Virus record (IMG/VR): IMGVR_UViG_3300017745_000059 | Span: 1 to 23,800 of that record | DNA: 23,800 bases | DNA from: a virus | Direction: 5' to 3' (one strand) | Shown here: positions 3 to 15,246 of the stretch, piece by piece | Layout: each line of letters begins with the position of its first letter | How positions within the stretch are numbered: position 1 is the first letter of the stretch | Position numbers and translations under genes: made by a program | The notes under the pieces: generated by a model | Database searches by the model: none | Seen by the model: only the letters and a program-made list of their open reading frames with translations | Told to the model about the DNA's origin: nothing

Positions 3-3000
3 GAGACTGCGAATGTAGGGTCGGAAAATCAAGCAGTCAATATGGATTTAAATTCGGAAGATTTTTCTTTGGGGTCATTAGATCAAAATAATTTTAAGCC
101 TTTTGATCCAAAAGCCCATATAAATAAACCAACTGGTTTTGGTACTAAAGATCCACTTGTATTGGATAATATAAAAGTTGAAGAAAATATTAAAAAAGCT
201 AAAAATAAGCATGATGATAGGCTTATTAACAAGAAAGGTTTTGATTATGATGATATAGCTAAAAAAATACATTCTGACCCTGAAAAATATAAAGGTTTAC
301 TTTCAGCCACACAAGACCCTAAGGCTTTATTAAATAGAAATAAACTACTAGAAGAATTAATACCTGGCTTTTCTGAAGTTTCTAATCCGTATTTACTAAA
401 AATGATTGAGCATGCAGGTATGGGCACAATGACGGAGGATGAAAAGTTGGTTTTAAGTGGTGCTAAAGTACACCCCATGACTCAACACGTGGCCTCTTCA
501 CTTAGTAATACTAAACATAATTTTCGAGATGATGACCATAACTTATATACTGAACCTTACTCTAGAGTAAAGTTTGACGGTGCAGGTGCGGTCCATACAC
601 TTGCTGGGGCTGTAGGGGAATATGTTATGGGCTCAAAACCATACATTTTTGGTGAAGAAAATTTAAAGGAAGTTGGGGATGGTGATCGTTTTGTTGTTAC
701 ATATGGTGATGATCCGAATATGATCATGCAAAATCATAAATATAATACTAGAAGTTTTAATATAAATAAACTTAGAGCAATTTACGATGAGATAATAAGC
801 AGCCAAGAGTATGTACAAGACGGGGAGAAAGCTGGAGGTGAAGAAAAACATATAGAAAATGTTATACAAAAAGGTATTCAATTTTTTAGCGGTGATGATA
901 AAGAATTTGCAGAATTATCAAGAAAGGTTCTTGATAGCGGTGATCCAGAGGCAATACAAGCATTAAAAAACAATCCTACTTACCAAGATTATATAGATGG
1001 TAATGTTAAGCAGTTATATGAAATATCAGGGCCTAATAAAGGTAATATAGTTTCTATGGATCAAGCCACAGGCGAAGCTAAGGAAGTGTTGGAACAAGCA
1101 CAGGAGTTAACAGAAAGCATGGAAACTGATGAATTAGACGCGGGATTAGCAAAAGCTTTTTCTAATCTTAAGGCTATAGCTAAAGATGCACATTTGGAAA
1201 TACAAAATAAAGGCGAAGGGAATTTTAAAAATCAAACATTTAAATATCCAGGCCAAAAGTATTTATCTAGCATACTGGATTTTGCTGGAAATGACTCAAA
1301 CTTTCATGCAGACTTAAGAAATTTAAAAGGAATTTTTGAGGATGATGATATCCCTACCAATATAACTACTATATCTGGTACAACACCCGAGGCAAATAGA
1401 TTTAATAATGCTTTAAAAGAATATTTAGCGTTTAATAAAGCGGTTACTATGAACATCGACCCTATGGAGAAAAGAACAAAAAAGGTTCTTGGCATGGAGT
1501 TTGATGTGACTAGAGATACATTTATGGGTGGTGTTGTAGATAACGTAGGAAGAAGATTAAGCCTTAATGAAGGGTTAGAAAGCAAACAGCAAGCAGTGCA
1601 ATTTTTTGATGCGGCTATACATAAAAATACTAATTTAAAATATGTGGACCCGAAAAAAGCAAATGAAAGGCTATACGAAGGATTTGGAAATGCCAGATAT
1701 ATTGGTGATGGCTTCGTTGATTTAGGTATGTTTGCAGCTGAAATATATGCTTTAAGAAAAGTTTCTGGTAATGCTATTTCAAAAGGATTAAATAAAGTTG
1801 ATAAAGCTTTAAAGGGAGGTATATTATACAGTAATCGTATTACTAGAGGTGCAACTAAATTTACTTTAGGTGCAGTTGATGAAGCAGCTTTATTTACAGG
1901 TTTGACATTATTAAAAGGTGGAGACAGAGAAGAAGTAAAATCTAGTGTATTATTTGGTGGAGCGCTTGGTGGCAGTAATAAATTCGCAGCTGGATTAATG
2001 AAAAGATTAATGACTCCAGGTGGCTTTTTTAGTAAAGCAACACATAATTTAATGCAATATAATTCAGGAGCAGCTGTTATTGAAGGGACTATTGGAGCAG
2101 CATCGGGTTCTTCTGTTTATCACTTTGCCCAATTTTTAACAGATAATGAAGAATTTCAAAAACTTTTAGAAGTTGATAAAGATGACCCTAATTACTCTGA
2201 TTATTATGGCCAAAAGTTATTAGAAAGCTGGAGTGCTGAATTTGTTAAAATGGCACTGCTTAACGGTTCCAAAGGAATTACCCCTAAAGGTTTTAGGAAT
2301 ACTTACCATAGCATGCGTGAAGATATGCTTAGAATGAAAGGTAGAGATGCCAGATCAGAACAAGCAGCTGAATCTTTTAACATTGATCATAATAGAATTG
2401 ATAATTTTGCTAGTAAAGATAAAAGATATAAACAAAATCCTTTAGAAAAAGATATTAATAAAGCTTATCAAAATAAAATTAATGAAATTGAATCAAACCA
2501 AAAAAATGGTAAAATTACAGAAGAGCAGGCAAATGAGCAAATAAATAAAGCTAGAACAGATAAAATAATTTTAGAAAATAAATTAGCTATAATTACTTCT
2601 AAAAAAATAATAGAATCTGAAAGTGGTAAAGATGGGAATGGGCATTACTTTAAAAATGAAATGGAGGCGTCTACTGTAGGTAACAAATTATTAGCTGGTG
2701 AAAAATTAACAGAACATGAAAGCAGACAATTCTCAAATGTAAACCCAGCTTATGTTTTAAACTCTATGGGATCTAAAGGTAGAAAATTAGCTGAAGGTAA
2801 GGAGTTTAGAGATCACATGCAGGGCCAACTAAAAAAACATGAGCAAATACAAAAGTTTTTAAATAATAGTGAATATAAGACTGATTTTAATGCTAAAGAA
2901 GAAAGAGAACAAGCATACGAGCATTTATCTAAAATGTGGGAAAATGCTTCTAGACAGAATGAATTAAAATTTAAAGGTGAAAAAACCGAAGGTGAAAAAG

Positions 3001-6000
3001 AGGAGTTAAAACAATTAGAAGAAAAATATAAAGATTTAAACGAAGGAGAAAGCTATAAGAAAATTCAAAAAACATTAGAAGCATATAACAATAAAAGATA
3101 TCAAGAAGATATTGCTTCTGCAAGAGAAATATTAAAAGTTACTGGGCAAGCAAAAGGGCTTAAGCAAGCTAGAACAGAAAGAGAATTCCAAGAGTTATAT
3201 AATTCATCAGGTTTAAAATCTAGAGATGTTAGGGGTACATTGGCTTTTTATAATCCAAATACCCAAAAAATGATTATAAATAAAAACCTGGCTTTAAAAA
3301 CAAGAACAATAACTACAGGTAAACACGAGGTATTACACCATGTTTTAAGAGATGTTTTAAAAGATGATAAAGGTAAAGTAACTAAAGAAGGTATTAAAAT
3401 AATTGATGACGTATTAGATAAATTAACCCCTGAGCAAAGAAAAATTGTTCAAGAAAGAATAGATAAAAATTATAGATATGATGAAAAGGGGAAAGAGCTA
3501 GCAAAAGAAGATTATTATGAGGAGCACTTAACTACTTTATCTGAATCTATAGCTAATGGGGAGATTAAATTTAGCGAAAAGGTTGGAAATTCTTTATTAG
3601 ATTTTATTCCTGGGATGAAAAAGAAAGGATTTGAAAATCTTGAAGTTGGTGTTGGAACTGGTGAGCAATTATTTAATTTAATAAAAAGTTATTCTAAAAA
3701 TGAAACCTTAGGTATTGAAGCGGCTAAAGCAATATCAAAAGACGCACCTACAAAAGGTCTTAAAGGTAAAGGTAAAGATTCTAGAAGTTTTAAAATGGAA
3801 TTAGAATCAGATAAGAAAACGGGCGTAGCAAAATTAAAAGCTAAGATACAGGAAAACAGAGATATGGGGCCTGGTAATCAAATAATGAATAGAAATATTG
3901 AGCAAGGCTTTAAAGAACAAATAAAAAGAGTTGAAAATTTAGAAACTCAATTTACTGCTGCCGAACTAAGAGCTAAAATTAAAAAAGCAAAAGGGCAAAA
4001 GAAAGAAGATTTAGAATTAGCATTACAAGAAAAATTTAGAGGATTTGAAAAAGAAGTTGAATTAGCAAAATTAAATATTGAAACTGGTGAAGCTAAATTT
4101 TCTGAAAAAGATTTTGATGGAAAAATAAGTTATGAAGCAATTGAAAAAGAAGGTTTAAAATTAGACAAAACTTCAGACAATGCTTTTATAGTAGCTTATA
4201 ATAAAAACTTTGCAAAAGAAACTATGCGAAGGCTTAAAAATGTAAAACTTGACGCTGATTTTCAAAAAAATAAAGAAGCTAAACAAGAAATTGCTGATGA
4301 GTTTATTTTAAATGATGGAAGGGGTTTAGTAGGGTTATTGAAAAAATATGACCCTGCTATAAATAAGAGCGTGATGGGTTATTTAAATTCTTTTGTACCC
4401 GGAACAGGAAGAAGCTTATTTGATGTTAGGCTTCAAGAGTTTTACGAAAAAGATCCTAGATATAATAGAATAATACAATCTACAACAAACGAGAATGTTC
4501 AAAGAAAACTTGAAAGAAAAGAAAATAATGATGATATTATTAATAAAAGCTTTGAAAATAAAAACTTAGTAGATAAGGTTTCTAACGGAACTCCTTCTAT
4601 AGTACAAAGAAATCTTAAAGTAAATGGTAAAGCTATATTAGATGCTGGCACACAATTAAGACAAAAGTTTGTTGATAAAGCATTAGATATTGCTCAAAAA
4701 TTAAAAGAAGAGGGTATCGCCCCAGAACATAAAGATTTTAGGAATAGATTTGGTAAAGAAGTGTTTAAGGATACAAAATTGTTTGAAGAATTTAAGAAAG
4801 AAATTGGGGCTACAAAATATGATAATTTCCTTGGTGAAATAATGGATGGTATTTTGAAAAACCCTAAAGGATTAAATTTAGCATTTTTTGTACAATCAGA
4901 AAAGTTTTATTCTAAAACAGGTAGAGAACCAATGTTTGTTAGGAAAGAAGCAGATAACAATAAAACATCTAAATACTTAAAGAAAGGTAGAGGTGGATAT
5001 ACAACAGAAAACCCAGCAGCTCAAAACTATAGTAAAGCAACAACTAAAGAAATGATGGAGCTTGCTATTAAAGATGGTAAAGCAAGTTATACTGAAAATT
5101 TAGCTAATGGTGTTTTTGTATATGAAAGACTAAGTACTAGACGTAGATCTAATAAAGAAATAAAAGATTATTTTAAAGTTCCTAATACAAAAGAAAAATT
5201 ACTTGAAACATTGTATACTCAAGCTTTGACGGACGCAATGATTGGTAACGCTAAAAAACCTATATTTACAAAAGAACAAAAAGATATAACTGCTAGAAAA
5301 TTCCAAAAGGAATTTGATGTTTATTTTTCTAAAAATTCAGAGGGTGTTAAATTAAGAGAAAGTGGTTTTGGTCCAAAAGGATTTTTTGCAGACTCAAAAG
5401 AACAAGTAAATGAACATTTCCAACTTATTGAAGGTGCTCCACTAGAAAAATTGCCTTTTTTGTTTGATTTATATTCATCTGGCAATTTAGTAACTTGGGG
5501 AGCTAAAGCGGTTGATTTAAGAAGTTCAGGAACAAAAGTTGTTAATTTACCAAAAGGATCTTTCTTTGTTATAGGAAAAGACTTAACGGGCAAAAGAAAA
5601 ACAGAAAATCAAAAAATGCTTGAGCATGGTTGGACTGTTGATATTTCTGGTGCAAAAGTAGGAAATAAACAAATAAATATATTTCAACAAAGAATACTTA
5701 GTAAACTAGGTAAAGACGCTCCTCAAAGTGCCGCAATGAAGCATGGAAATTCTAAGCCTTCTATAAAAACAAAAGAAACTATAAACAATTTTGTTAAAAG
5801 AATAACTAAAGATCACGTAAAAAATGAGCCTTTAACTAAAGAAGCCATTAGAGAGTATATAAATAATGTTGTTGAATTATTAAAAATTGAACCAAGAGCA
5901 ACATGGGATTTAATATATAATCAAAATGCTAGTGGAGGTTTAAATAGACAATTAGCGAAAGCAACTCACTATGAACTAGGTATTAAAAAAGGTGGTGGAG

Positions 6001-8621
6001 GAAATAGATTTGAGCATGTCCTACAAAATGGCGAGTTCAATGTAATGATTAAAGATATCGCCGAGGCTAAAGATGCTGCAGCTAAAAAGCAAATGACTGA
6101 ATGGCTTGCAAAAAACTATAGACAATATATATTAACAAAAGAAAGTGAAAAAATAGTTGATGATAAATACATTTTAGCAGACGGCACAGTTTGGGAAGCA
6201 AAATCAAAATTACATCCAGCAATTAGAAAAGCATGGGATAGAGTTAAGAATGGTGAAAAAGAGGTTAAAATACCAAGTGCAGACGCAAGATTGTTTAATG
6301 AATATTTTGGTAATAAGTTTATTAATCCTTATGCTATAAAAAATGGTAATGGTATTTCTAAAGCAAAAGAATATGGTTTTGACGTTCCCCAAAAGGTTTG
6401 GAAAAATAATATAAATGTTCAAAGAAATGCTGCCAACCTTATAGGTGATGTAATAGTTGGTAAAATAACAAAAGCAGAAGCTTTAAAAAGATTTAATAAA
6501 ACCTTACCAATAGCTAAACCTCAAGCTAAAATGGCGCTTAAATATTCTAAAGGTAAAACAACAGATATATTAGAGGTTATTGAAAAAGGCGAAGCAGGAA
6601 ATAAAGAAGCGAGAGAAGTACAATCTGCTAGATTTTCGAAACAAGATATTTCAAAAGAGTTTAATGGCTATTTAGAAAAATCAACTGGTATTAAAAAAGA
6701 ATCTGTATTTGGTGCCGCAACCGCAATGGCTAGGGGTAAAAGAGCTAAAATAGATTTTGGTGATTATTTCATACCTGTAGGTGCTGAAGATTTCGCGGGG
6801 TTAATGCATAAAACATTAGCTAAAGGCAAAGCTGGTGAAAAACAATTAGAATTTTACGATAAAGTATTATATGAGCCATATAATAAGGCTGTAGAAGGAA
6901 TGACTAATGAAGCAATGGCATTAAAAAATGATTTTAAAGCAATAAAAAAGAAACTGACTGCTGTTCCTAAAACCTTAAAAGAATATACAGAAGGCGGTGT
7001 ATTTACAAAAGAACAAGCAGTAAGAGTATATATGTGGAATAAGCTTGGATATGAAATTCCAGGTATAAGCAAAAAAGTTAAAAGCGAATTATTAAAAGAA
7101 GTTGATAAAAATGCTGACTTGCATACATTTGCTAATGAAATAGTAAAAATTACAAAAGGTGATGGTTACGCAAAACCTAAAGAAAGTTGGGTTGCGGGTA
7201 ATATTGCGATGGACATGGTTGATTTAGTAAATGGTGCCAAAAGAACAAAACACTTAGAAGTTTGGCAAAACAATGCGGATCAATTATTTAATAAAGAAAA
7301 TTTACTTAAGCTAGAAGCCGCTTATGGCCCTAAATATGTTAAGACTCTAAAAAGAACTTTAGAAAGAATGAAAACTGGCTCAAATAGAAAATGGGGTGGT
7401 AATGAAACAATAGAAAAATGGAATGACTGGGTTAATGGTTCAGTTGGTGCTATTATGTTTTTAAACACTAGATCAGCAGTTCTACAAACAATATCCAATA
7501 TAAACTATATAAACTTTTCAGATAATAACCCATTACAAGCAGCAAAAGCTTTTGGAAATCAAAAACAATATTGGAAAGACTTTAATACTTTATTTAATTC
7601 ACAATACTTACAAAGTAGACGTGGAGGTAATAAAATAAATGTAAACGAAAGTGAATTAGCATTAGCACAAGAAAAGGGCGGTGTTCAAGGCGTTATAGCT
7701 TTAATGCTTAATAAAGGATTTGTGTTAACAAGAATGGCTGATAGTTTTGCAATTTCAACAGGTGGTGCTTCCATGTACAGAAATAGATTAAACAGATATA
7801 AAAAAGAAGGATTGTCTGAAAAAGAAGCGGAGAAAAAAGCATTCCGTGATTTTATGAAAATTACAGAAGAAACGCAACAGTCTAGTAGACCAGACAGAAT
7901 ATCTGAACAACAAGCTGGTAATTTAGGTAGATTTATGTTAGCATTTGCTAATACACCAATGCAGTATAATAGAATTATTAAAAGAAATTTACAAGATTTA
8001 ATAGCCCGTAGGGGTGATCCTAAAGAAAAACTTACTAAGATTACTTATTACGGGATGATTCAAAACCTTATATTTAATGCTTTACAAAAAGCATTATTTG
8101 TATCTGCATTTTCAGATGAAGAAGATGACGCTCAACAACAAAGAAATGTGAATATTGGGGAAGGTATGTTAGATTCATTACTAAGAGGATCTGGTTTAAT
8201 AGGTAATGCAACAGTAGCTGTTAAAAATGTTGCTAAAGCAGTAATAACTGGAGCTAATGAACCAGCCTTACAGGCATTATCTGTTTCACCTCCTTTACAT
8301 ACAAAAATTAAAAAGCTAAGAGGTGCAGATTATTTAAGAAAGAAAGTTACTAAAGAAAACATGTTTGAACCTACCCTAGATAATCCTGCTTTAAATGCTG
8401 GTGCACAATTCAGCTCAGCCGTATTTAACTTCCCGTTAGATAGGGCTATAAGAAAAGCACAAAATATGGAAGCAGCGATGGGTGAAGAAGCTGAATATTG
8501 GCAAAAAGTAGCATTAGCTTTAGGATGGGGTGAATGGGAATTAGGAATGCAAGAAGAGGATAAATCTAAAAAGAAAAGAAAAAAGAAAGTTAAAAGATAT
8601 GCCGCGGGCACTTTTAAATAG
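3..8621 (+). CDS. Giant polyvalent/internal virion protein with zinc-peptidase motif (5' partial)
   Basis: The frame is open to the left edge: the 13 codons before the ATG at 42 contain no stop and no clear ribosome binding site precedes that ATG, so the gene probably starts outside the window. Numbering from Met at 42 (2,859 residues): residues about 554-700 are rich in small and hydrophobic residues and could insert in membrane; HEVLHH at 1095-1100 is a HExxH zincin motif, with an acidic EEHLTTLSE segment at 1160 that may give the third zinc ligand; about 2195-2330 (RFSKQD, EDFAGLMHK, GKAGEKQ, a PYNKA motif) and about 2460-2690 resemble blocks conserved in marine phage polyvalent or internal virion proteins. 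It is Lys/Glu/Asn-rich with long helical stretches. By family analogy it would be packaged and ejected to help DNA cross the envelope. The virion-protein role is fairly likely; the peptidase activity is inferred from the motif only. Confidence 0.75.
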   Translation, partial: ETANVGSENQAVNMDLNSEDFSLGSLDQNNFKPFDPKAHINKPTGFGTKDPLVLDNIKVEENIKKAKNKHDDRLINKKGFDYDDIAKKIHSDPEKYKGLLSATQDPKALLNRNKLLEELIPGFSEVSNPYLLKMIEHAGMGTMTEDEKLVLSGAKVHPMTQHVASSLSNTKHNFRDDDHNLYTEPYSRVKFDGAGAVHTLAGAVGEYVMGSKPYIFGEENLKEVGDGDRFVVTYGDDPNMIMQNHKYNTRSFNINKLRAIYDEIISSQEYVQDGEKAGGEEKHIENVIQKGIQFFSGDDKEFAELSRKVLDSGDPEAIQALKNNPTYQDYIDGNVKQLYEISGPNKGNIVSMDQATGEAKEVLEQAQELTESMETDELDAGLAKAFSNLKAIAKDAHLEIQNKGEGNFKNQTFKYPGQKYLSSILDFAGNDSNFHADLRNLKGIFEDDDIPTNITTISGTTPEANRFNNALKEYLAFNKAVTMNIDPMEKRTKKVLGMEFDVTRDTFMGGVVDNVGRRLSLNEGLESKQQAVQFFDAAIHKNTNLKYVDPKKANERLYEGFGNARYIGDGFVDLGMFAAEIYALRKVSGNAISKGLNKVDKALKGGILYSNRITRGATKFTLGAVDEAALFTGLTLLKGGDREEVKSSVLFGGALGGSNKFAAGLMKRLMTPGGFFSKATHNLMQYNSGAAVIEGTIGAASGSSVYHFAQFLTDNEEFQKLLEVDKDDPNYSDYYGQKLLESWSAEFVKMALLNGSKGITPKGFRNTYHSMREDMLRMKGRDARSEQAAESFNIDHNRIDNFASKDKRYKQNPLEKDINKAYQNKINEIESNQKNGKITEEQANEQINKARTDKIILENKLAIITSKKIIESESGKDGNGHYFKNEMEASTVGNKLLAGEKLTEHESRQFSNVNPAYVLNSMGSKGRKLAEGKEFRDHMQGQLKKHEQIQKFLNNSEYKTDFNAKEEREQAYEHLSKMWENASRQNELKFKGEKTEGEKEELKQLEEKYKDLNEGESYKKIQKTLEAYNNKRYQEDIASAREILKVTGQAKGLKQARTEREFQELYNSSGLKSRDVRGTLAFYNPNTQKMIINKNLALKTRTITTGKHEVLHHVLRDVLKDDKGKVTKEGIKIIDDVLDKLTPEQRKIVQERIDKNYRYDEKGKELAKEDYYEEHLTTLSESIANGEIKFSEKVGNSLLDFIPGMKKKGFENLEVGVGTGEQLFNLIKSYSKNETLGIEAAKAISKDAPTKGLKGKGKDSRSFKMELESDKKTGVAKLKAKIQENRDMGPGNQIMNRNIEQGFKEQIKRVENLETQFTAAELRAKIKKAKGQKKEDLELALQEKFRGFEKEVELAKLNIETGEAKFSEKDFDGKISYEAIEKEGLKLDKTSDNAFIVAYNKNFAKETMRRLKNVKLDADFQKNKEAKQEIADEFILNDGRGLVGLLKKYDPAINKSVMGYLNSFVPGTGRSLFDVRLQEFYEKDPRYNRIIQSTTNENVQRKLERKENNDDIINKSFENKNLVDKVSNGTPSIVQRNLKVNGKAILDAGTQLRQKFVDKALDIAQKLKEEGIAPEHKDFRNRFGKEVFKDTKLFEEFKKEIGATKYDNFLGEIMDGILKNPKGLNLAFFVQSEKFYSKTGREPMFVRKEADNNKTSKYLKKGRGGYTTENPAAQNYSKATTKEMMELAIKDGKASYTENLANGVFVYERLSTRRRSNKEIKDYFKVPNTKEKLLETLYTQALTDAMIGNAKKPIFTKEQKDITARKFQKEFDVYFSKNSEGVKLRESGFGPKGFFADSKEQVNEHFQLIEGAPLEKLPFLFDLYSSGNLVTWGAKAVDLRSSGTKVVNLPKGSFFVIGKDLTGKRKTENQKMLEHGWTVDISGAKVGNKQINIFQQRILSKLGKDAPQSAAMKHGNSKPSIKTKETINNFVKRITKDHVKNEPLTKEAIREYINNVVELLKIEPRATWDLIYNQNASGGLNRQLAKATHYELGIKKGGGGNRFEHVLQNGEFNVMIKDIAEAKDAAAKKQMTEWLAKNYRQYILTKESEKIVDDKYILADGTVWEAKSKLHPAIRKAWDRVKNGEKEVKIPSADARLFNEYFGNKFINPYAIKNGNGISKAKEYGFDVPQKVWKNNINVQRNAANLIGDVIVGKITKAEALKRFNKTLPIAKPQAKMALKYSKGKTTDILEVIEKGEAGNKEAREVQSARFSKQDISKEFNGYLEKSTGIKKESVFGAATAMARGKRAKIDFGDYFIPVGAEDFAGLMHKTLAKGKAGEKQLEFYDKVLYEPYNKAVEGMTNEAMALKNDFKAIKKKLTAVPKTLKEYTEGGVFTKEQAVRVYMWNKLGYEIPGISKKVKSELLKEVDKNADLHTFANEIVKITKGDGYAKPKESWVAGNIAMDMVDLVNGAKRTKHLEVWQNNADQLFNKENLLKLEAAYGPKYVKTLKRTLERMKTGSNRKWGGNETIEKWNDWVNGSVGAIMFLNTRSAVLQTISNINYINFSDNNPLQAAKAFGNQKQYWKDFNTLFNSQYLQSRRGGNKINVNESELALAQEKGGVQGVIALMLNKGFVLTRMADSFAISTGGASMYRNRLNRYKKEGLSEKEAEKKAFRDFMKITEETQQSSRPDRISEQQAGNLGRFMLAFANTPMQYNRIIKRNLQDLIARRGDPKEKLTKITYYGMIQNLIFNALQKALFVSAFSDEEDDAQQQRNVNIGEGMLDSLLRGSGLIGNATVAVKNVAKAVITGANEPALQALSVSPPLHTKIKKLRGADYLRKKVTKENMFEPTLDNPALNAGAQFSSAVFNFPLDRAIRKAQNMEAAMGEEAEYWQKVALALGWGEWELGMQEEDKSKKKRKKKVKRYAAGTFK

Positions 8622-8671: not shown

Positions 8672-8974
8672 ATGGCAACAGAAATATCAGAAAAAACTCA
8701 ATTAAAATTAGATTTAAAAACGATTGGAATAATTGTAGCAGGGGCGATCTCTTTAGCCAGCATGTATTTTGTAATGGCTGCTGACATAGAGCAAGCTAAA
8801 CTTTTACCAAAAGCACCTGTTAGTGAAGTTGAGTTTAAATACAAAGACGAAATGATTCGTAAAACTATAGAGCTCACACAAAAAGATGTTGAAACTATAA
8901 AAACAGATGTGGAATCTATGAAGGGTACATTGGAAAAATTAGATGAACGTTTATATGATCTCCAAAGAAGATAA
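8672..8974 (+). CDS. Small membrane protein, one TM plus coiled coil (copy 1; holin-like candidate)
   Basis: This 100-residue protein has a polar N-terminus, one membrane span at about residues 17-36 (KTIGIIVAGAISLAS) and a charged helical C-terminus with heptad-like spacing, so it is probably a membrane-anchored coiled coil. It is clearly paralogous to the protein at 10679-10987: about 22 of the first 31 residues are identical, including LDLKTIG and GAI-LASM. The gene follows the giant virion gene after a 50-nt gap and sits 2 nt before the secreted thioredoxin-like gene, the same order as in the second copy. Size and location near an M15 lysin fit a holin or a spanin-like accessory, but no family was recognised. 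A structural or ejection-channel role is also possible. Confidence 0.75.
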   Translation: MATEISEKTQLKLDLKTIGIIVAGAISLASMYFVMAADIEQAKLLPKAPVSEVEFKYKDEMIRKTIELTQKDVETIKTDVESMKGTLEKLDERLYDLQRR

Positions 8975-8976
8975 TT

Positions 8977-9312
8977 ATGAAATATTTAAAATTATTATTA
9001 CTATTATTCACTTTAACAGGTTATTCACAATATAAAGATGGAATATCTGTTGTTCAATTTAGTGCAGAATTTGTAAAAGATAATGAAATATCCCTAAAAA
9101 AATTTGATGATCATAATATTCATTCTTTTTATTTAAGTAAACATAGTGGTCATTTTACTAATGAGAGTATAGTATATATACCAACAGTTATGTTATTTCA
9201 TAACGGTAAACAATTATTAAAAATAGAATCAGGTGTAACTTTAAAATTACCTGAAAATACAGTAGAAAGGATAGAAGAAGCTATAGACGAGATACTATCC
9301 GACAAATTTTAA
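8977..9312 (+). CDS. Secreted thioredoxin-like protein lacking CxxC (copy 1)
   Basis: The 111-residue product starts with a signal peptide ending in GYSQ, the Bacteroidota pattern, so the mature protein should be periplasmic or surface-exposed. The remainder reads like a thioredoxin fold: a strand (SVVQFSAEF, residues 24-32) where thioredoxins have VVDFWA.WC, and a cis-proline loop followed by a strand and turn (YIPTVMLFHNGK, residues 67-78). The active-site cysteines are missing: the mature protein has no cysteine, so it cannot do thiol-disulfide exchange. It follows the coiled-coil membrane gene by 2 nt. Its partner is the similarly built product of 10984-11307. A binding or scaffold role is inferred; the fold assignment is moderate. 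Confidence 0.7.
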   Translation: MKYLKLLLLLFTLTGYSQYKDGISVVQFSAEFVKDNEISLKKFDDHNIHSFYLSKHSGHFTNESIVYIPTVMLFHNGKQLLKIESGVTLKLPENTVERIEEAIDEILSDKF

Positions 9313-9314
9313 CA

Positions 9315-9464
9315 ATGAAATCTAAAGGATTAGGAGACGATATTGAAAGACTAACTACAGCAACTGGATTAAAGAAAGTTGTAGATAAAATAAGTGAAGT
9401 TACAGGTGTATCTTGTGGCTGTCAAAAACGTAAAGAAGCATTAAACAGGATATTCCCAAAATAA
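9315..9464 (+). CDS. 49-residue CGC-motif phage miniprotein
   Basis: A short ORF between the thioredoxin-like gene and the barrel-like gene, with 2-nt and 5-nt gaps either side. The product is 49 residues: a helical N-terminus (GLGDDIERLTTATGLKK), a VVDKISEVTG segment and a Cys-Gly-Cys-Gln-Lys-Arg motif (residues 34-39) before a short LNRIFPK end. The compact gene spacing, sensible codon use and paired cysteines support a real gene. It looks like a small conserved family that I associate with phages of Bacteroidota, but I cannot name a function. The two cysteines could bind metal or pair between monomers. There is no signal peptide, so it is expected in the cytoplasm or virion. Confidence 0.65.
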   Translation: MKSKGLGDDIERLTTATGLKKVVDKISEVTGVSCGCQKRKEALNRIFPK

Positions 9465-9469
9465 AAACT

Positions 9470-10675
9470 ATGAAAAACCTATTATTAGCATTTTGTTTGT
9501 TAATTTCATTTAATTCAAATAGCCAATTTTTAAAAGAGGTATATAAAGACTTTTTAAAATATGGTACGTTTTATGTTGCTGGTGACGCGTCAAATGCGTA
9601 CGAACAAACATATAAAGATTACTTTGTAGAAAGACCAGCAGACGGAGATTTGTATGGTATACCAAGAGTAATTGACGTAACTGATTACTACCCAATGGAT
9701 TATAGGGTTGGTTTAGGTTTTAGAAAATTAGCTAGATTTGATTATGAAGTAAAAGCTAAAGAATACTATGACGGAACTGAAAATAATAAATCATTATCAG
9801 CACCAACATCATCAGTTAAAGGGTTAGAATATTTATTCCATTATGAAAAAGAAAGAGAACGTGGGGAAGAATTTTTTAATTCTAGATTCTTTATAAGACA
9901 TGTAGGTGATTACCATATAGTTAAATTAGAGCAAAGAGAACAAGGTAATGTTGGATTTAAATACCAATCAGCTGAAGTAAGAGGTAGACTACCTATTGGT
10001 AAAAAATTTAGTTTATCAGCTGGAGCGATATATAGAACACATCAAACGCCTTATGGATATAATCCAATTGAAATATGGTTAAATGAAACAGCACAATACA
10101 CTAATCCTAACACGGGAGAGATTATAGAATATCCTGCTAATCCATGGTATAGTCTTGGATATGAATATGGATATAGTGATAATTTTACAAAGTATACTGA
10201 TATAAATACAGGTGAAGAAAGATACGACTGGATATGGAAAGATAGTGATGGGCAAGTTGTTGCTTGGAGTGATAAAGATTTTCGTGATGAAATATTTGGT
10301 GGATTAATGAATTTATACAATAGAGAACAATGGGATTTATTAGATCCTTTCGGTGAAATTGCACCGGTTGTAGGATTTGATTTTTATCATTATAGATCAA
10401 ACTTTTGGCTTCACGCATATGGCAACTATATACTACCTTACCATAAATATATTACTGGTGATGAAAACGTAAGTTATTTAAATCGTAATAATTGGGGTAA
10501 AGGTGGTTTAATAGAAGGTGCTGAAGGAGAACAATGGGATGATTACCAAGCTGGAATAATATTTGGCTGGAAATTAAGCAAATCAATAGGAATATTTGCT
10601 GAAGGAGAATATACTAAATTCTGGGATTCAGAAATTTATAATTCTTCCGTAGGCATAAACTTTACATTTAGATAA
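9470..10675 (+). CDS. Secreted outer-membrane beta-barrel-like protein
   Basis: The 401-residue product has a signal peptide (MKNLLLAFCLLISFNSNSQ) of Bacteroidota type. The mature part is rich in Tyr, Trp and Phe and contains many alternating polar/hydrophobic strands, for example RFFIRHVGDYHIVKL, FKYQSAEVRGRL, APVVGFDFYHYR and SIGIFAEGEYTKF. It ends in INFTFR, a terminal aromatic strand of the sort recognised by outer-membrane barrel assembly. This suggests an outer-membrane or surface protein made late in infection, which is unusual for a phage. It lies between the two coiled-coil/thioredoxin-like pairs. Possible roles are superinfection exclusion, envelope disruption at lysis, or nutrient uptake; none is shown. 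A secreted beta-rich virion component is the main alternative. Confidence 0.7.
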   Translation: MKNLLLAFCLLISFNSNSQFLKEVYKDFLKYGTFYVAGDASNAYEQTYKDYFVERPADGDLYGIPRVIDVTDYYPMDYRVGLGFRKLARFDYEVKAKEYYDGTENNKSLSAPTSSVKGLEYLFHYEKERERGEEFFNSRFFIRHVGDYHIVKLEQREQGNVGFKYQSAEVRGRLPIGKKFSLSAGAIYRTHQTPYGYNPIEIWLNETAQYTNPNTGEIIEYPANPWYSLGYEYGYSDNFTKYTDINTGEERYDWIWKDSDGQVVAWSDKDFRDEIFGGLMNLYNREQWDLLDPFGEIAPVVGFDFYHYRSNFWLHAYGNYILPYHKYITGDENVSYLNRNNWGKGGLIEGAEGEQWDDYQAGIIFGWKLSKSIGIFAEGEYTKFWDSEIYNSSVGINFTFR

Positions 10676-10678
10676 AAT

Positions 10679-10987
10679 ATGGCAACAAAATTAGGAGAAG
10701 ATACTCAAGTACAACTAGACCTGAAAACAATTGGAATGATTGTTGGAGGAGCAATAGCTTTAGCGAGTATGTGGTTTACTTTGCAAGGGGAAATTAAAGA
10801 TTTGCAAAATCAAGTAGCCCCTGAAGAATTTGTAAAACAGATGGAATTTAAATTAAAAGACGAATTAATTCGTTCGACAATTATACAAATTGAAGCATCC
10901 ACAAACTTACTAAAAGAAGATATAAAAGAAAATAGAGAGGAAATTAAAAAGAATTCAGATAAATTATATGAAATAACAAAAAGATGA
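10679..10987 (+). CDS. Small membrane protein, one TM plus coiled coil (copy 2; holin-like candidate)
   Basis: This 102-residue protein repeats the plan of the gene at 8672-8974: a short polar start containing TQVQLDLKTIG, one TM at about residues 17-36 and a long charged helix with heptad-like repeats ending in KLYEITKR. It overlaps the start of the next gene by 4 nt (ATGA), so the two are probably translationally coupled, and the same gene pair exists upstream. This second copy is separated from the M15 peptidase by only one gene, a position often held by holins. The paralogy is directly visible; the holin idea is inference. It begins 3 nt after the barrel-like gene. Confidence 0.75.
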   Translation: MATKLGEDTQVQLDLKTIGMIVGGAIALASMWFTLQGEIKDLQNQVAPEEFVKQMEFKLKDELIRSTIIQIEASTNLLKEDIKENREEIKKNSDKLYEITKR

Positions 10988-11307
10988 AAAATTTAATTAC
11001 AATTATATTAGTGTTGTTTGCTTTTATAGCGACAGCACAAGATTACACTTTAATGCACATAAATGCAAAATGGAACCAATCAAATAATTTTGATTTAAGA
11101 GGTATTAAAGAAGCCAAAGTGCAATATGCACTATTAGAGGACCAAGCGCCCTCTTTAAGAGCACAAATAAAATCTGTTCCACTAATTATATTACTTGATA
11201 AAGCTGGTAAACCTAGAGGTCAGTGGACAGCAGATTTGACTTTTAAAATCACGGCAACAAAAGATGAAATCCAAGATAGAATTTATTTCTTGTTATCTAA
11301 AGATTAA
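10984..11307 (+). CDS. Secreted thioredoxin-like protein lacking CxxC (copy 2)
   Basis: The 107-residue product has a signal peptide ending in ATAQ. The mature region matches a thioredoxin-like plan: YTLMHINAKWNQSNN at residues 21-35 lies where thioredoxins have WCxxC, with Asn/Gln/Ser in place of the cysteines, and SVPLIILLDKAGKPRGQW at about 64-81 forms the expected cis-Pro loop, strand and turn. It has no cysteine, so redox activity is ruled out. It is coupled to the upstream coiled-coil membrane gene by a 4-nt overlap. Overall similarity to the copy at 8977-9312 is low at residue level but clear in length, signal, fold pattern and neighbour. A periplasmic binding partner of the coiled-coil protein is a reasonable guess. 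Confidence 0.7.
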   Translation: MKNLITIILVLFAFIATAQDYTLMHINAKWNQSNNFDLRGIKEAKVQYALLEDQAPSLRAQIKSVPLIILLDKAGKPRGQWTADLTFKITATKDEIQDRIYFLLSKD

Positions 11308-11310
11308 TAA

Positions 11311-11775
11311 ATGAAAAACATAAGCGAACACGTTACATACAAGGAAGGTGTGTATAGCATCACTGCTTTGCGTTTAGGTTTAAATAATGATCCTACAAAG
11401 AATCATTTAACAAACATGGAGCTTTTAGCAGAAAAAGTATTTGAACCTCTTAGAAAGGCCGTAAATGGCCCTATAAAGATAAATTCATTCTATCGCGGAG
11501 GCGAATTAAATAAAGCGATCGGCGGGTCGCCCAATTCACAACATTGCAAAGGACAAGCAATTGATATTGATGATGTATATGGATATATGAGTAACGCAGA
11601 TATGTTTGAATACATAAGAAAAAATTTATCGTTCGACCAGATGATATGGGAATTTGGAAATTCTGATAACCCAGATTGGGTACATGTCAGTTATGTGAAT
11701 GAGGAAAACAACAGAAACAGATGCCTATTAGCTTATAAAGACGAAGATAATAGAACAAAATATAAAACAATATAA
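11311..11775 (+). CDS. M15-family peptidase, probable endolysin
   Basis: This 154-residue protein matches the M15 D-Ala-D-Ala carboxypeptidase / L,D-endopeptidase fold seen in phage lysins and hedgehog-like zinc peptidases. The SxHxxGxAxD motif is at residues 76-85 (zinc ligands His78 and Asp85), a candidate catalytic acid is Glu114 in IWEFG, and the third zinc ligand is His125 in DWVHVSY. The length fits the single-domain family. There is no signal peptide, so release to the periplasm would need a holin, which supports a search for one among the adjacent small membrane genes. It most likely cleaves peptide cross-links in host peptidoglycan at lysis. A virion-associated lytic role is the alternative. 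Confidence 0.88.
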   Translation: MKNISEHVTYKEGVYSITALRLGLNNDPTKNHLTNMELLAEKVFEPLRKAVNGPIKINSFYRGGELNKAIGGSPNSQHCKGQAIDIDDVYGYMSNADMFEYIRKNLSFDQMIWEFGNSDNPDWVHVSYVNEENNRNRCLLAYKDEDNRTKYKTI

Positions 11776-14025: not shown

Positions 14026-14397
14026 ATGAAACTATGGAAAATTGCCCTTTTTGTACTCATTGTGGTTGTCACTAGTTGTGCAACCTACAATACAAAACCT
14101 AAAATACAAATTACGCACGTTTTAGCTGTCACAGAACAAGGTGATACGCTAAGATTACCTATTAATATGATTAAACCAAACGTTTATTATAACGTCATAT
14201 CGTATCCTAATAGATACTACGGTGGTTGGTATAATAATTATTATCAACCAGATTATAGAAATTATAAACCTATATATGCTCCTAGCAAAGGATCAAGTGG
14301 GTCATCAAATAACAATAACAGCAATAACAAAATTGTTCCAAGAGATAATCCAGACAAAAGACCATCTGGAGAAGTATTATTAAAAGGTAAAAAATAA
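14026..14397 (+). CDS. Small lipoprotein
   Basis: The 123-residue product has a lipoprotein signal with lipobox-like VTSC and the lipidated Cys at residue 18, followed by Ala. The middle is Tyr/Asn-rich (YYGGWYNNYYQPDYRNYK) and the C-terminus has a Ser/Asn low-complexity tract then a basic PSGEVLLKGKK end. It begins 1 nt after the fibre gene. An outer-membrane location, as usual for Bacteroidota lipoproteins, is inferred. In the lysis neighbourhood it could be an outer-membrane spanin-like subunit or a surface protein that blocks superinfection, but no family was recognised. It is more than just a short linker lipoprotein because of the aromatic segment. Confidence 0.7.
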   Translation: MKLWKIALFVLIVVVTSCATYNTKPKIQITHVLAVTEQGDTLRLPINMIKPNVYYNVISYPNRYYGGWYNNYYQPDYRNYKPIYAPSKGSSGSSNNNNSNNKIVPRDNPDKRPSGEVLLKGKK

Positions 14398-15123: not shown

Positions 15124-15246
15124 GTGAAGTTTTTTGATTTAAATAATAATGGGAAGTATGATTGGTGGGAATATATCCTACCAATTTTATTATTACTATG
15201 TATTGAAGTTATTGCTGAGCTTTTGGCAAAATTTTTGATATCTTAG
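15124..15246 (+). CDS. 40-residue EF-hand-like loop plus TM peptide (GTG start)
   Basis: Read from a GTG directly after the previous stop, this ORF gives an N-terminal stretch KFFDLNNNGKYDWWEYILP in which residues 5-16 match a canonical 12-position EF-hand calcium loop (D1, N3, N5, G6, hydrophobic/aromatic 8, D9, E12). It continues into a hydrophobic helix (PILLLLCIEVIAELLAKFLIS) that should span the membrane. The last 38 nt overlap the 3' end of the leftward glycosyltransferase gene. The coherent motif plus TM design in an ORF with no leader gap argues that it is real, though the GTG start is not proven. Confidence 0.6.
   Translation: MKFFDLNNNGKYDWWEYILPILLLLCIEVIAELLAKFLIS

Follow-up and report, generated by a model that had tools for sequence, protein, structure and literature searches.

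Gene order between the giant gene and the endolysin

The window, i.e., the whole stretch of DNA analysed, is the 23.8-kb virus record IMGVR_UViG_3300017745_000059. After a giant open reading frame (ORF), the genes CC1, T1, a 49-residue ORF, BAR, CC2, T2 and M15 lie head-to-tail and tightly packed:

3-8621: giant ORF, upstream of CC1
8672..8974, + strand: CC1 (100 aa), single transmembrane (TM) helix followed by a coiled-coil tail; makes up the clade A unit together with T1
8977..9312, + strand: T1 (111 aa), signal peptide and thioredoxin fold without CxxC, clade A
9315..9464, + strand: 49-residue ORF, a passenger gene outside the module
9470..10675, + strand: BAR (401 aa), predicted exported outer-membrane beta-barrel, co-inherited with the clade A CC-T pair
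10679..10987, + strand: CC2 (102 aa), paralogous to CC1; makes up the clade B unit together with T2
10984..11307, + strand: T2 (107 aa), signal peptide and thioredoxin fold without CxxC, clade B
11311..11775, + strand: M15 peptidase endolysin (Pfam Peptidase_M15_3, PHROG endolysin)
14026..14397, + strand: lipoprotein P123, with a lipobox and about 9% proline across the family, a possible outer-membrane partner

An earlier note had placed the ORFs at the same coordinates, including two CC-T pairs at 8672-9312 and 10679-11307. Its order and coordinates stand, and its layout is amended in two details: the T2 start overlaps the CC2 end by 4 nt, and the packed run reaches the endolysin. Neither Pfam nor PHROGs has a name for the set of exported proteins beside the endolysin. 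The 49-residue ORF contains a CGC motif; its relatives occur in 27 loci, at places that differ from locus to locus, and it is therefore regarded as a separate small phage gene, a wandering passenger.

Both CC proteins consist of about 18 residues, a single hydrophobic helix and a helical, coiled-coil-like tail of about 60 residues; the TM helix starts near residue 19, and a second one is found in none of 84 CC members. As the earlier note had seen, CC1 and CC2 are obvious paralogs, with exactly 22 of 31 N-terminal residues identical and 42% identity over the full length (E = 5e-28). Heptad spacing is strong in CC1 (its score is reached by 0 of 500 shuffles) and weak in CC2 (34 of 500). The sequence suggests an N-in/C-out orientation, with the tail in the periplasm. 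The Rz-like PHROG model phrog_739 matches CC2 with E 0.022 and CC1 with E 0.58, and also matches in 11 of 14 control genomes; we therefore discount it as a sign of Rz homology and read it as a non-specific coiled-coil match.

Some CC members carry a calcium-loop-like DxDxDGxxD directly N-terminal of the membrane helix (L053:4991-5398, L040:4977-5294 and L018:5698-5994). A 40-residue ORF of the window (15124-15246) may encode a tiny membrane protein: it has a DxNxNGxxD loop, and a hydrophobic helix at its C-terminus. Another CC subfamily, marked by the motif FRIKWPRGEMGALPDDA, is often encoded ahead of the CC-T pair (L034:2218-2532, L047:4261-4578 and L059:4926-5225); its homologues are gp15 in the cultured Pelagibacter phage HTVC027P and a gene of the uncultured fussvirus AP013543, immediately 5' of the DNA maturase/terminase genes.

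Between the secreted partners T1 and T2, BLASTP finds no alignment even at E <= 100, in accordance with the strong divergence described earlier, yet profiles unite them in a single thioredoxin-fold family: iterated searches begun with either protein arrive at the identical set of 97 ORFs, and hhalign between T sub-family profiles gives 94–99% probability. The earlier thioredoxin-like assignment is borne out by PDB profile searches (thioredoxins, E down to 1.5e-8), by Pfam Thioredoxin (29 of 50 T members) and by the AF2 model of T2 (pLDDT 87), whose structural matches are thioredoxins. T shares with bacterial thioredoxins the fold and the cis-Pro motif, and differs from them in being exported, phage-encoded and devoid of CxxC in all 75 distinct members. 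Usual thiol-disulfide exchange is thus impossible, and T would be redox-dead. A lipobox is found in none of the 75 T members.

All of 73 T members have a signal peptide with glutamine where cleavage is expected, preceded by Ser, Ala, Gly or Thr in 72, and Q19 of the BAR signal peptide is invariant across 27 aligned members. The T signal peptides fit the Q-rule described for Bacteroidetes (PMC5837995), and such signal peptides point to Bacteroidota as hosts of these phages. Metagenome-assembled genome (MAG) contigs that bear BAR come under the labels Flavobacteriaceae, Bacteroidetes, Maricaulis, Alphaproteobacteria and Woesearchaeota; such mixed labels, which misbinned phage contigs may explain, leave the host unsettled by labels. 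Among 50,697 phage records, nothing matches BAR or CC2, and T has weak thioredoxin matches only; the window phage has no close cultured relative there.

The 401-residue gene had been called barrel-like, and both its signal peptide and its model agree with that call. The model is of moderate confidence (pLDDT 71), and nearly all its structural matches are outer-membrane barrels, the best being a loose fit (Z 11.9, rmsd 4.5 over 185 residues); no sequence match was found in PDB. BAR thus models as an exported outer-membrane beta-barrel. None of 47 BAR proteins of the main set, that of the window included, has a lipobox. In three divergent records (L154:13165-14262, L099:4166-4756 and L179:13132-14280), BAR opens with a lipobox-like signal followed by PKxCCxQ, and may there be a lipid-anchored barrel.

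Virion proteins are assembled in the cytoplasm and normally lack Sec signal peptides. T and BAR carry such signals and would be exported from the cytoplasm before virions assemble, which makes an ejection system, one of the functions proposed in the earlier note, highly improbable. Such a system would resemble internal virion proteins that build a trans-envelope channel, and what favours it is the place of the module directly 3' of the giant gene, of a type found as virion-associated proteins, a role that is assumed here.

Two ancient lineages of CC-T pairs

Two viral scans gave 97 loci, some of them overlapping on shared contigs. A CC gene lies immediately upstream of T in 92 of the 92 T ORFs that have upstream DNA, the remaining five being at contig starts, and the spacing is mostly -4, -1 or +2 nt, so that stop and start overlap or touch. 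The pair order, for which a search in related phages had been proposed, therefore recurs far beyond chance. Of 18 large related records, two lack CC as well as T, and the other 16 have both. The exceptions are three partial records with a CC relative without T (G019, G020 and G021) and the more distant G018, where three genes separate CC from T; the module is absent from G006, G016, G022 and G023. Viral records may be fragments, and these absences are provisional.

The T tree shows a deep division into two clades (SH-aLRT 99). One of them, clade A, takes in 33 single pairs that come with BAR, the first pair from each of ten double loci, and L097, where BAR is present in the record; clade B takes in the second pair from each of these ten loci and 15 single pairs that lack BAR. 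In profile comparison, the first-pair T is likewise closer to clade A than to clade B. In the CC tree, all first-of-two CC proteins group together (support 83), and all second-of-two CC proteins fall with eight BAR-less singles into one supported clade (99); seven further clade B partners (L023, L024, L029, L030, L041, L064 and L095) lie elsewhere in this poorly resolved tree. Every one of the 44 clade A T rows comes from a record with BAR. Thirteen records with clade B alone were searched over their full length, G004 (70 kb), G009 (61 kb) and G030 (59 kb) among them, and BAR turned up in none.

Most relatives carry a single type, A or B, and the window carries both. Given the clade placement and the co-occurrence of BAR with A only, the window holds an A unit (CC1-T1-BAR) followed by a B unit (CC2-T2). 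A recent tandem duplication is ruled out by the two deep clades, each present singly in relatives, and the local duplicated module of the earlier note gives way to two ancient paralogous lineages. Its two specialised partner pairs remain in that the pairs are conserved as pairs and T and BAR are exported, and are revised in that they are not local copies. The barrel gene does lie between the pairs, as had been described, but is not merely interposed, being co-inherited with the first.

Porins are among the structural matches of BAR (OmpG, CymA and Tsx), and BAR could be a porin, with CC-T as its helper, in solute uptake or another physiological aid. Fold alone is no proof of function, and the clade B units do without BAR; we consider this reading improbable.

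Pairwise distances among 31 single-pair clade A loci correlate for CC-T (r 0.78; partial r 0.53), CC-BAR (r 0.71) and T-BAR (r 0.72), whereas those of the nearby M15 correlate with the module at r 0.33–0.41. By sequence distance, CC, T and BAR thus co-diverge as a unit, from which the adjacent endolysin stands apart. Tight linkage may add to this signal, yet M15 is also linked and does not co-diverge.

Endolysin, holin candidates and lipoproteins around the module

In most loci, M15 lies directly after T or within one or two genes of it; in G017 and G018, CC-T is far from M15. The MAG contigs L110 and L115 keep the gene set in permuted order, and in L016, L108 and L064 a 3TM-holin-like gene shares the cluster of the module. 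The cultured Pelagibacter phage HTVC027P has a CC-family homologue two genes 5' of M15; in between is a small protein whose N-terminus is hydrophobic, so the succession of CC, exported protein and endolysin extends beyond the present phage group. By context, the module would belong to the lysis region, as it lies beside the endolysin, T and BAR are exported, and some loci have the 3TM-holin-like gene in the cluster; the link to lysis itself is one of position only.

A location just 5' of the endolysin, with overlapping genes, is also what a holin–antiholin pair like T and RI of phage T4 might show, with CC as the holin, T as a periplasmic regulator that binds the CC tail, and the two pairs as two timing inputs. 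The predicted topology of CC and T, an N-in TM protein with a periplasmic tail and a periplasmic protein with a signal peptide, matches that of T4 T and RI as described in PMC11413866. The module differs from T4 T/RI in its added barrel, whose co-inheritance would be unexplained, and in the separate 3TM holin candidate of most relatives, detected by Pfam PF11351 in 12 of 18 large records (five of these above the cut-off, most below it) and by our own profile in 15 of 20. Such a separate candidate favours an outer-membrane or timing role over CC as the sole holin. The thioredoxin fold of T is a further difference; RI, to our knowledge, does not have it. We judge the holin–antiholin reading, a main rival, unlikely.

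A lipoprotein scan that recovers 50 of 50 known lipoproteins makes no call among the T, BAR, CC and M15 proteins of the main set. P123 is rejected as a constant o-spanin partner of CC: many CC-bearing records lack it, and G016 has P123 without CC. That BAR and a lipoprotein are alternatives is unsupported at the level of loci, where a lipoprotein occurs in 23 of 34 BAR loci and 6 of 12 BAR-less loci (p = 0.31), the latter set wrongly counting in L091, L096 and L097, which do have BAR elsewhere in their records; a test on independent pairs had no power. Among large records, by our own reading, a lipoprotein is present in 6 of 6 without BAR versus a convincing non-BAR lipoprotein in 5 of 14 with BAR.

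In relatives that lack the module, the slot between the giant gene and M15 holds other exported genes (L067:1151-6000, L090:1271-6000 and L026:1088-5998): proteins of about 154 and about 541–585 aa, a lipoprotein of about 118 aa, a 76–91-aa TM protein with a Pro-rich tail, and secreted proteins of about 240 and about 450 aa. The secreted protein of about 240 aa recalls CsgG by eye, an identity that PF03783 did not confirm.

Such replacement in the same slot would also suit superinfection exclusion or envelope remodelling, in which BAR and CC-T would work on the host surface late in infection, altering or blocking it, and the endolysin would be a mere neighbour. Every component is exported or membrane-bound, the pairs vary, can be replaced and have diversified, two types occurring within one genome, and M15 does not co-diverge with them. 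Against this, no exclusion family is matched in Pfam or PHROGs, and the link to the endolysin region recurs under permuted orders. We give this explanation the same weight as the holin–antiholin reading.

A putative envelope-spanning complex

The adjacency of CC and T in all 92 testable cases, the tie of BAR to clade A, the co-divergence, the proximity to the endolysin and its persistence under permuted orders argue for an envelope complex. We tentatively propose, at somewhat below an even chance, that CC-T (clade B) and CC-T-BAR (clade A) form an envelope-spanning complex of the lysis region that helps to breach or destabilise the outer membrane, or acts in timing. CC would be anchored in the inner membrane, N-in/C-out; T, in the periplasm, would dock onto the tail of CC; and BAR would be the outer-membrane end of the bridge. 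Around or after the action of holin and M15 endolysin, this bridge would aid the breach of the outer membrane, a spanin-like job without homology. In clade B, the complex would have a different outer-membrane partner, e.g., a lipoprotein, or serve in timing alone. As a counterpoint, the periplasm is wider than the CC tail of about 60 residues could bridge on its own.

Like the lambda Rz/Rz1 spanins (and the T1 gp11 u-spanin), CC is predicted to be an inner-membrane protein with an N-terminal TM helix and a helical tail, encoded near the endolysin, and clade A, like Rz/Rz1, has an exported outer-membrane component. The module differs from Rz/Rz1 in having no constant lipoprotein partner, a barrel as the outer-membrane part, an extra thioredoxin-fold protein and no specific sequence match. 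T and the window BAR lack a lipobox and the Rz-like match is non-specific, so we do not count the module among the canonical spanins. The OM43 methylophage Melnitz encodes a CsgGF pore, proposed as a lysis regulator (PMC9004378). BAR is likewise a phage-encoded, predicted outer-membrane protein, but its model is a monomeric barrel of a different type, and CsgG (PF03783) was not found in eight related records.

About 13% of surveyed phage genomes are without a recognisable spanin, and the authors of that survey (Kongari et al. 2018, PMC6139136) raised the idea, though giving no example, of an outer-membrane protein (OMP) as o-spanin in spanin-less phages. A route of spanin-independent outer-membrane disruption, widespread in marine Bacteroidota phages, in which CC and BAR are joined by a redox-dead thioredoxin-fold adaptor, is possible if doubtful. 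Searches of open-access papers turned up no account of the gene set, and the coexistence of two module versions in one phage offers a natural pairing test. In sum, these phages have in their endolysin region a conserved three-layer exported set, unnamed in Pfam and PHROGs, and the module is a concrete, clonable candidate for the route in which an OMP would serve as o-spanin.
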